DNA from: Bradyrhizobium sp. CB1717 | GTDB taxonomy: Bacteria > Pseudomonadota > Alphaproteobacteria > Rhizobiales > Xanthobacteraceae | NCBI RefSeq assembly: GCF_029714325.1 | Contig: NZ_CP121666.1 | Span: 4,402,001 to 4,466,000, forward strand | Direction of reading: 5' to 3' | DNA: 64,000 bases | Shown: positions 13,100 through 42,040 of the stretch, piece after piece | How the letters are laid out: every line of letters starts with the position of its first letter | Numbering within the stretch: the first letter of the stretch is position 1 | Notes under the pieces: generated by a model | Seen by the model: the letters and a program-made list of their open reading frames with translations, nothing else | Database searches by the model: none | Told to the model about the DNA's origin: nothing | Position numbers and translations under genes: made by a program

Positions 13100-13375
13100 G
13101 TGTCTCTGTGGGGCATGGATTCGGGGTGGGGACGGGTGACAAGGCCGGGAAAGAAGCGGGCGCGCGCCGTATCGGGCGCGCCGGGAGGCTCGCGCAACGA
13201 GGAACCGGGGGAGGGCGGGGCAGATGAGGCGGTGGCCTTCATCGCCGAGCAGGTGGCTGCGTTGCGCAAGCTCGCCGAGCGCCACAAGCTGGACGTGCTG
13301 CATTATCTCCTGGGGATGACGCAGCTCGAGGCCGACGAGCATTTGCGACTGCGGAGCAAGCGCAAGCTGTCGTGA
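13100..13375 (+). CDS. Conserved small hypothetical protein
   Basis: 91 residues. The N-terminal half is low-complexity and basic; the C-terminal half (EAVAFIAEQVAALRKLAERH then LDVLHYLLGMTQLEADEHLR) is a clear amphipathic helical unit, and it ends in RLRSKRKLS. Similar short helical proteins occur in Bradyrhizobium, from memory and not checked. The true start may lie further in. The stop lies about 10 bp before the left core of the IS110 element, so the insertion left this gene intact. No function known. Confidence 0.6.
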   Translation: MSLWGMDSGWGRVTRPGKKRARAVSGAPGGSRNEEPGEGGADEAVAFIAEQVAALRKLAERHKLDVLHYLLGMTQLEADEHLRLRSKRKLS

Positions 13376-13386
13376 CCCGTCATCCT

Positions 13387-13563
13387 TGTAAGTTTCGACT
13401 CACTGGATCGGATAGAGTGTCCGGTGCGGTAGCGGACGGGAGACCGCCTCATCCCAGGGCTTTGAAGCCCGAGCCTCAGCGCGGCGCCCCGTCCGTTGTT
13501 CCATTGAACCCGAACAGTCGCGAGGGCCGCCTGGCGAGCCCGATTGCGCAAGGATGGGTGCAG
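13387..13563 (+). ncRNA. Putative IS110 bridge RNA
   Basis: The 177-nt leader before the recombinase fits the place and size of the bridge RNA known from IS621. A stem (13433-13440 with 13488-13495) closes an internal loop. In that loop TCATCC (13449-13454) repeats the left-target top strand, a GGGC/GCCC hairpin (13457-13470) follows, and GCCTCAG (13473-13479) is the reverse complement of the right target CTGAGGC. A second loop carries ACAGTCGC (13514-13521), identical to the right end of the element (14505-14512), again followed by a GGGC...GCCC hairpin, and CAAG (13549-13552) complementary to the left-end start CTTG. The exact RNA ends are unknown. Confidence 0.6.
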
Positions 13564-14496
13564 ATGGACGCGATCTATATTGGCATTGATGTATCGAAGG
13601 ACCGGCTGGACGTGCATTTGCGTCCGAGCGGGGAAGCCTTTGCCGTGGCGCGTGACGGCAAAGGCTTGGAAGACCTTGTTGCTCGTCTGCAGGCCTGTTC
13701 GCCAACGCTGATTGCAGTGGAAGCGACGGGCGGCTTCGAGACCATTGTCGCGGCGGCGCTGGCCGGCGCCCAACTGCCGCTGGTGGTGGTCAATCCGGCC
13801 CAAATCCGGCACTTCGCGCAGGCCGTTGGCCAGCGCGCCAAGACCGATCCGATCGATGCGGCAGTCATCGCGCGGTTTGTCGAGGCGGTGAAGCCGACGC
13901 CGCGTGCCATGCCAGATCAGGAAGCCCGGCTGCTGGCCGAACTGGTCAGCCGCCGACGGCAGATCATCGAGATGATCGTTGCCGAGCGCCAGCGCGAGAA
14001 GCGGGCCGAGAATGTCCGCGTTCGCAAGAGCCTTGCCCGCCACATCAAGGTCCTCGAGAAGGAGCTGCTGGAGATCGACAACGACATCGACACGCTGGTG
14101 CGCGGTTCGCCGGTCTGGCGCGCCAAGGAGGAGTTGCTGGTGAGCTTTCCGGGTGTAAGCAACACGCTCGCCCGCACCTTCCTGGCCGAGGTGCCCGAGC
14201 TCGGCACCCTCAATCGGCGCCAGATCGCAAGCCTCGCCGGCCTTGCTCCGTTCACCCGCCAATCCGGCCGCTGGAAGGGCAAGAGCATGATCGGCGGCGG
14301 GCGAGCCGCACTGCGCGCCGGGCTCTACATGGCCGCTCTCTCGGCCAGCCGACACCATCCGCAGCTCAAGCTCTTCTATCAACGCCTGCTGATCGCCGGG
14401 AAGCCGAAGATGGTGGCCCTCATCGCCGTCGCTCGCAAAGTCCTCACCATCCTCAACGCCATGCTCAGGGACCAAAAACAATGGCAACCCGCTTGA
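13564..14496 (+). CDS. IS110-family transposase/recombinase
   Basis: 310 residues. N-terminal RuvC-like DEDD domain: Asp9 (YIGIDVSKD), Glu53 (AVEATGGFE), Asp95 and Asp98 (KTDPIDA). The C-terminal Transposase_20 domain begins around VSFPGVSNTLA and carries Ser234 in TRQSGRWKGK, the position of the nucleophilic serine in IS110 enzymes. All five catalytic positions are intact, so the gene looks functional. The frame is open back to 13372, but ATG at 13564 starts at the conserved MDAIYIGIDVSKDRLD and leaves the non-coding end free. Confidence 0.93.
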   Translation: MDAIYIGIDVSKDRLDVHLRPSGEAFAVARDGKGLEDLVARLQACSPTLIAVEATGGFETIVAAALAGAQLPLVVVNPAQIRHFAQAVGQRAKTDPIDAAVIARFVEAVKPTPRAMPDQEARLLAELVSRRRQIIEMIVAERQREKRAENVRVRKSLARHIKVLEKELLEIDNDIDTLVRGSPVWRAKEELLVSFPGVSNTLARTFLAEVPELGTLNRRQIASLAGLAPFTRQSGRWKGKSMIGGGRAALRAGLYMAALSASRHHPQLKLFYQRLLIAGKPKMVALIAVARKVLTILNAMLRDQKQWQPA

Positions 14497-14513
14497 CGAA
14501 GAACACAGTCGCT

Positions 14514-14656
14514 GAGGCGCGAGTGGCGCGATGCGGAGCATTGCGCCGGGAGCCTCGAAGGATGAACGGCCGGGATGCGGCCGCGTGGAGAAAGCCGGGC
14601 CGTCGCCCTTCGAGGCTCGCCGAAGAGGCGAGCACCTCAGGGTGACGGTGAGGGAT
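14514..14656. repeat. REP-like palindromic repeat split by the IS
   Basis: The stretch contains two nested imperfect palindromes whose arms carry TCATCCT(T)(C)GAGGC and its complement (GCCTCGAAGGATGA at about 14550-14564; CCTTCGAGGCTCGCC and CACCTCAGGGTGACGG further right). Its missing left end, CCCGTCATCCT, is found at 13376-13386 on the other side of the IS110 element. No coding potential. Confidence 0.75.
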
Positions 14657-14677: not shown

Positions 14678-14764
14678 CGTCATTGCGAGCGCAGCGAAGC
14701 AATCCAGACTGTCTCCGCGGAGGTAGTCTGGATTGCTTCGTCGCAAGGGCTCCTCGCAATGACG
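14678..14764. repeat. 87-bp CGTCATTGCGAG palindromic repeat, copy 1
   Basis: Begins CGTCATTGCGAGCG, ends CTCGCAATGACG, and has inner arms AGCAATCCAGA and TCTGGATTGCT around a short variable centre. Very similar 87-bp copies lie at 15394 and 28654. Confidence 0.9.
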
Positions 14765-14770
14765 GTGTGG

Positions 14771-41947: not shown

Positions 41948-42040
41948 TGGCGGAGAGGGAGGGATTCGAACCCTCGATACAGCTTGAGACCGTATGACGC
42001 TTTAGCAAAGCGTTGCCTTCAGCCACTCGGCCACCTCTCC
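41948..42040 (-). tRNA. tRNA-Ser (GCT anticodon)
   Basis: On the minus strand the gene begins GGAGAGGTGGCCGAGTGGCT, has the anticodon stem-loop ACGCT-TTGCTAA-AGCGT with anticodon GCT, a long variable arm, the GGTTCGAATCC T-arm and acceptor CCTCTCC, with CCA encoded. The long variable arm confirms a class II tRNA that reads AGC/AGU. Confidence 0.97.

Follow-up and report, generated by a model that had tools for sequence, protein, structure and literature searches.

In IS621 of E. coli, the closest described system, a recombinase with DEDD residues and a serine is accompanied by an RNA from the left end of the element and by a CT core. The RNA carries left and right target guides followed by left and right donor guides, the right donor guide being split, together with handshake bases (PMC11208158), and the element inserts in repeated extragenic palindromes (PMC11208160, PMC11208158). 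Bridge RNAs are predicted in 85.7% of IS110 elements (PMC11208160). IS110 elements targeting REP sequences have been on record since 2006, with ISPpu9 (7/7 copies), ISPpu10 (7/7), ISPa11 (6/6) and ISRm19 (4/4) all located in such repeats (PMC1525189). Natural redirection has been described for the seekRNA-guided ISEc11 and ISXne4, where the guide region is replaced between relatives and the target is changed (PMC11187229). The element analyzed here resembles IS621 in its homologous recombinase, predicted left-end RNA, CT core, guide order, split right donor guide, handshake bases and palindromic insertion site. It is REP-located like ISPpu9, ISPpu10, ISPa11 and ISRm19, which reside in other hosts and other REPs and are likened to it by their description only. 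We consider it nearly certain that this is an IS110-group insertion sequence whose own left-end RNA steers insertion, by the route set out below.

The window, that is, the whole stretch of DNA analyzed, spans 64,000 nucleotides of the Bradyrhizobium sp. CB1717 genome (contig NZ_CP121666.1, positions 4,402,001 to 4,466,000). It holds an intact, complete IS110-type insertion sequence of 1129 bp, and the CT that an earlier note on this DNA had seen at both ends is indeed there (13385-13386 and 14512-14513). The boundaries are exact, six genomic copies having the same 1129-bp limits with differing flanks. The main features, with their basis in brackets, are as follows.

13385..14513, + strand: whole IS110-group element including both CT cores (shared boundaries in six copies; empty sites in relatives)
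13385..13386, + strand: left core dinucleotide CT (copy comparison)
14505..14513, + strand: right end ACAGTCG, the left donor in the circle, plus right core CT (copy comparison)
13378..13384, + strand: left target CGTCATC, belonging to a repeated extragenic palindrome (sequence, copies)
14514..14518, + strand: right target GAGGC (sequence, copies)
13564..14496, + strand: recombinase gene, 310 aa, with D9, E53, D95, D98 and S234 (Pfam, NCBIfam, structure match, residues)

An open reading frame (13100-13375) ends 10 bp before the element starts. The left non-coding end, upstream of the gene, extends for 177 nt from core to ATG (13387-13563) and the right end for 15 nt from stop codon to core (14497-14511). 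The core is short and common to the target and both ends, and nothing of the target is duplicated beyond CT. Membership in the IS1111 group, characterized by sub-terminal inverted repeats of 7-17 bp and an RNA in a long right end, was rejected on account of this short right end and of a longest exact inverted match of 5 nt between the 60-nt ends. ISEc11, unlike the present element, is of the IS1111 type, with its non-coding region downstream and the order of strand matches reversed (PMC11187229). To the right of the element, inspection by eye showed the remainder of the palindromic repeat (14514-14648, ending CACCTCAGGGTGACGG) and, at about 14678-14765, another inverted repeat starting CGTCATTGCGAGCGCAGCGAAGCAATCC.

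The recombinase matches both Pfam domains of the group (PF01548, E 2.2e-22; PF02371, the C-terminal domain with the conserved serine, here S234-G235, E 2.2e-18), and scores 221.6 bits against the NCBIfam model NF033542, 'IS110 family RNA-guided transposase', whose cut-off is 140. Its nearest solved structure is the IS621 transposase (8wt6, E 4.5e-34, residues 4-302); the only other one matched is the ISCro4 transposase (PDB 9t56, E 2.2e-33). The DEDD residues and Ser234, described as intact in the earlier note, were all found. In the 8wt6 alignment, D9, E53, D95, D98 and S234 correspond to IS621 residues D11, E60, D102, D105 and S241, as numbered in PMC11208158; S234 falls on chain position 243, which we took as S241 because D11 lies at chain position 13. 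By analogy with IS621, strand exchange would proceed through Ser234.

Six full copies, this one included, are present in the home genome (9.23 Mb, one contig). Five of the six are identical over 1129 bp and the sixth has two differences, both in the gene, the ends being invariant; as judged from sequence, the element was probably mobile recently. All copies lie at the motif [C/G]TCA[T/C]C-CT-GAGG[A/C] (hyphens set off the core), in one orientation relative to it. The sequence TCAYCCTGAGG occurs 73 times in the genome, often in inverted pairs about 60-130 bp apart, and the reversed control pattern 0 times; thus, the target is a repeated palindromic element. Empty sites were sought in other genomes with joined flanks, the loci fetched being the best-ranked of many matches. 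For the copy in the window, 8 of the 14 loci had the exact junction GTCATCCTGAGG, three had one change and three were rearranged; most of the 14 had an extra 4-32 bases between the stop codon and the repeat. For a second copy (L004), 10 of 15 loci had the exact junction CCTCATCCTGAGG, three had one change and two had lost it. Since empty sites carry one CT and occupied sites one CT at each end, insertion is precise. Matches to plasmid records were partial, covering at most 19% of the element. The home genome also encodes a distant IS110-type protein (L007/L008, C1:1059079-1059951) that aligns in two pieces at 32-36% identity; the bridge-RNA covariance model described below found no match in L007.

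Guide positions within the left end were set by the IS621 numbering of PMC11208158, and the element's target sequence, written out, is CCTCATCCTGAGGC. The predicted RNA comprises the following parts.

13398..13564, + strand: predicted bridge RNA with 5′ stem-loop, target loop and donor loop (ends placed by IS621 numbering)
13430..13498, + strand: target-binding loop domain with closing stem (helices 2-4 of the pair counts)
13447..13455, + strand: left target guide CCTCATCCC (IS621 50-58), last base unpaired with core T
13457..13470, + strand: hairpin GGGC(TTTGAA)GCCC between the target guides
13473..13479, + strand: 7-nt right target guide GCCTCAG (complementary to CTGAGGC)
13480..13481, + strand: handshake bases CG of the target loop, complements of G and C at donor positions 7 and 6
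13508..13559, + strand: donor-binding loop domain with closing stem (helices 5-7 of the pair counts)
13514..13521, + strand: left donor guide ACAGTCGC, equal to the element's right end 14505-14512
13544..13552, + strand: right donor guide TT(GC)G-CAAG, IS621-like split pairing to left-end CTTGTAA
13553..13554, + strand: handshake bases GA of the donor loop, complements of C and T at target positions 7 and 6

Several of these parts had been recognized in the earlier note: GCCTCAG as reverse complement of CTGAGGC, the GGGC/GCCC hairpin between the target guides and the identity of 13514-13521 (ACAGTCGC) with the right end were each found where it had placed them. Three of its assignments needed extension or trimming. 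TCATCC at 13449-13454 does equal the top strand of the left target, and the guide is longer, CCUCAUCC / CCTCATCC at 13447-13454. CAAG at 13549-13552 complements the left-end CTTG as proposed, and is the second part of a longer, split right donor guide. In the register found, two U residues pair with A14 and A13, two bases are skipped, G stands opposite T12 and CAAG pairs with G11-C8. Finally, the 177-nt span exists. Under IS621 numbering the RNA probably begins inside it, near 13400 rather than at 13387, and would extend from about 13398-13401 to about 13564, or some 165 nt.

Compared with the IS621 bases named in PMC11208158, the donor ACAGTCGCTTGTAA shares bases 1, 8, 9, 11, 12 and 13 and differs at 6, 7 and 14; the target differs as well. 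The right target guide is 7 nt long versus 4 natively in IS621, the gap between target guides is 17 nt versus 15 in IS621 numbering and, unlike in IS621, the guide base opposite the core T, a C, does not pair. At three of the six genomic sites (L004-L006), all seven left-target bases match the guide. The window's own site, CGTCATC, mismatches the guide at target base 2, and one copy (L001) sits at a TCACC site with an unchanged TCATC guide, which U:G wobble would permit.

An IS621-style template comprising both target guides, the left donor guide, the split right donor guide and the four handshake bases matched at 32 of 34 bases. Across 300 dinucleotide shuffles the mean was 20.4 and the maximum 24; the opposite strand gave 20, and 300 random target/donor pairs at most 26. 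These values bear out the earlier note's view that the guide and core matches are unlikely by chance. The split register and the handshake bases were absent from that note and therefore count as extra predictions, which held. The template was drawn up after the sequence had been inspected, so independent evidence has to come from relatives.

Relatives were collected by protein search, which gave matches in 20 of 265 genomes of the genus (E up to 1e-60) and in 17 of 385 of the class (E up to 1e-45), the home genome being counted in both, and from 33 named GTDB loci, of which several are end fragments. One set, clade A, shares 59-100% amino acid identity with the element and has ends CTTGTA...ACAGTCGCT. 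Its guide spacing is fixed at 17 nt in 38/38 rows, by a pattern search requiring C after the right guide, and the 13 aligned left ends are all gapless between the target guides. At this fixed spacing the first target handshake base is C in 37/37 rows and the second varies; TT, G and CAAG of the right donor guide are invariant in the 13 aligned rows. Two loci (L046, L047) combine the target TCACC with the guide TCACC, where other clade-A guides read TCATC. Genome G643 has five copies with the target GTC[A/G]TC-CT-GAYG and the guides AGTCGTCC and ACGTCAG, and a Hoeflea locus (L051) has the target CACCCC-CT-CTGG with GCACCCCCT and AGAG. Agreement with the guide is weaker at the fifth base after the core, where it holds in 22 of 37 copies.

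A sister IS110 clade in Bradyrhizobium genomes, clade B (41-45% identity), comprises 61 copies (L015-L027, L032-L036, L054, L055, L075-L115), of which L054 and L055 are MAG relatives. Its ends are CCTGTG...ACAGTTGCC, its core is CC and its target is GGGTC-CC-GG; in IS621, by contrast, the second T of the core is described as 'almost invariant' (PMC11208158). The target guides are TTGGGTCC and GAGCCGG, both right guides ending in GG. The donor guides, matched by eye and uncounted, pair ACAGTTGC with ACAGTTGC and CACAGG with CCTGTG. Three genomes contain 26, 71 and 50 occurrences of the intact target repeat TATGGGTCCCGGCYTTCGCCGG, and its reversed control gave 0.

Pairing of guides with targets follows clade membership. 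Clade-A guides (n = 37) score 12.70 of 14 on their own targets versus 5.93 on those of clade B, and clade-B guides (n = 61) 12.67 on their own versus 5.20 on those of clade A. Within clade A, the 13 types scored 163.6, whereas permutations averaged 144.1 and 0 of 20,000 reached the observed value. The count stayed at 0/20,000 when Hoeflea, or Hoeflea and G643, were removed, and rose to 6/20,000 when the two TCACC types were removed as well. Left out of the scores were L009, whose contig ends at the right core, and L049. The counts also exclude duplicates of the same places (L037-L039, L044, L045), two truncated loci (L029, L050) and end fragments (L056-L069). For L054 and L055 the right guide was read with a register shift of two bases; these readings were kept and lower the score. 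Because the types are related to one another and a single left guide recurs in 59 of 61 clade-B copies, the permutation counts overstate independence: the independent evidence for covariation is a few distinct target switches, and the scores describe it rather than prove it. On the comparison of copies that the earlier note had proposed, relatives with differing targets carry correspondingly differing guides. The note had also singled out unchanged loops at new flanks as contrary evidence; the six home copies keep both the loop and, at six flanks, the same target, exactly what one guide predicts. The replacement of guide region and target among these relatives is like that of ISEc11/ISXne4.

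One relative stands apart. In a Microvirga MAG (completeness not given), a 70%-identical element (L049:1366-1500) lacks the whole target loop, 43 model positions being replaced by two bases, and retains the donor loop, the ends and the open reading frame. Its site differs as well (GGTCCCC-CT-CCCCCGC), and when the MAG was searched for another such bridge RNA or recombinase, its own were the only ones found. The loss may be genuine or may reflect a collapse during assembly.

The folding check suggested in the earlier note gave a mixed answer. Folded alone, the left end is only mildly more stable than shuffled sequences (z -1.73, 11/200 shuffles as good; in a second run z -1.95, 7/200), and the minimum-energy fold pairs five guide bases (13447-13449, 13478-13479) with the other side of the loop. 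The two-loop structure did emerge from the RNAalifold consensus of 13 left ends, which shows a 5′ stem-loop, target loop and donor loop and in which 16 of 40 pairs carry two-sided changes. When the count was confined to the two loop domains (35 pairs), 96.9% of cells were paired and two-sided changes affected 12 pairs; no shuffle of 500 was as high, and slid versions attained at most 47% paired and 2 such pairs, a control in which the structure is favoured since it was drawn from the same alignment.

A covariance model built from clade A only was run against 27 sources (the window, L049, nine clade-B loci and 16 more distant loci). It matched all nine clade-B loci, eight at E 7e-10 or better and L055 at 5.5e-6. 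Among the 16 distant loci, six matched at E <1e-3 (L052, L118, L121, L122, L126, L129), four weakly (L053, L120, L124, L125) and six not at all or at E 6.7 (L007, L119, L123, L127, L128, L130). In the home genome the model found exactly the six copies; it also matches the same hairpins on the opposite strand (window 13495-13433, E 0.0044). At gathering threshold, the sole Rfam match in the whole window is a tRNA at 41951-42040; Rfam thus gave no family for the element, and may hold no such model. Two sub-threshold Rfam matches in 13300-14600 (E up to 5) were taken as chance.

The element ends also carry sequences from which a sigma70-like promoter could be assembled at the circle junction.

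14493..14498, + strand: -35-like TTGACG, which overlaps the stop codon and lies 19 nt ahead of the right core
13389..13394, + strand: putative weak -10-like hexamer TAAGTT, 3/6 consensus bases

TTGA lies 19 nt before the right core in 15/15 element types, its TGA serving as stop codon too. Hexamers like TAAGTT lie 17 bp from TTGA only across the joined circle, and their match to a -10 is weak. The position of such a junction promoter would place the RNA start near 13400. Trimming the IS621 ends to a 22-bp donor removed the -35 box (PMC11208160), which fits the predicted -35 at the right end.

We propose that the recombinase would excise the element as a circle, whose junction would rebuild a promoter with its -35 from the right end and its -10 from the left end. 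The left-end RNA of about 165 nt (about 13400-13564) would bind the recombinase; its first loop would pair with both strands of CCTCATC-CT-GAGGC, a half-site of the repeated extragenic palindrome, and its second with the joined ends ACAGTCG-CT-TGTAA. Strands would be exchanged at CT with nothing duplicated beyond the core. The ends, copies, empty sites, enzyme residues, two-loop structure and guide/target covariation are read from sequence, and transcription, circle formation and RNA binding would follow the IS621 precedent. The earlier note's reading of a complete bridge-RNA recombinase element is supported by the copies, the empty sites, the residues, the structure and the covariation.

Other explanations fare less well. 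The recombinase could read the palindrome by protein-DNA contacts, the matches in the left end being leftovers of the target or of past insertions rather than guides. CCTCA does occur in both guides, since the target forms an inverted repeat, and capture of a single copy could account for some of the match. On the other side, guide spacing is kept and the 13 aligned left ends are gapless, the guides switch with the target in relatives, they sit inside stems that compensatory changes have preserved, and the agreement extends to the donor guides and the handshake bases; we regard this account as extremely improbable. Hardly more credible is that the RNA chiefly regulates the recombinase gene, with guidance secondary. 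Such a role would accord with a predicted RNA ending at the start codon (13564) and with the sRNAs reported to regulate the ISPpu9 transposase gene (PMC8450116), but it predicts no covariation with target and donor DNA.

A somewhat greater, though still small, chance attaches to a genuine bridge-RNA element that is now dead in this genome, neither transcribed nor mobile. The weakness of the -10 would suit such an element, whereas the near-identity of the six copies (0 or 2 differences in 1129 bp), the intact gene and residues and the empty sites in relatives tell against it. Taking the left-end RNA as a guide, one may tentatively go further and place the element in a wider natural series whose target loops, and in one clade the core too, have been recoded in step with the DNA. 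The relative that lacks a target loop might then borrow target loops from another element, a notion that is conceivable because the two-RNA synaptic complex of IS621 would permit it; we hold this wider proposal to be possible and rather less than even in likelihood.

As the IS621 model, REP-targeting IS110 elements and natural retargeting were already described, the mechanism is known, and the element is a well-supported further example of it rather than a new mechanism. Titles and abstract openings in the open-licence literature yielded no bridge-RNA element of Bradyrhizobium, and this one may already have a name. What it adds is a six-copy, apparently intact alphaproteobacterial element with a predicted bridge RNA, and a further case of IS621-type insertion into extragenic palindromes, along with a second clade with a CC core. 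Its specialist interest lies in that sister clade, in the relative without a target loop and in the natural target series. Between them, the relatives carry at least four natural targets (TCAYC-CT-GAGG, TC[A/G]TC-CT-GAYG, CACCCC-CT-CT and, in the distant clade, GGGTC-CC-GG), a series usable as tests of retargeting rules.
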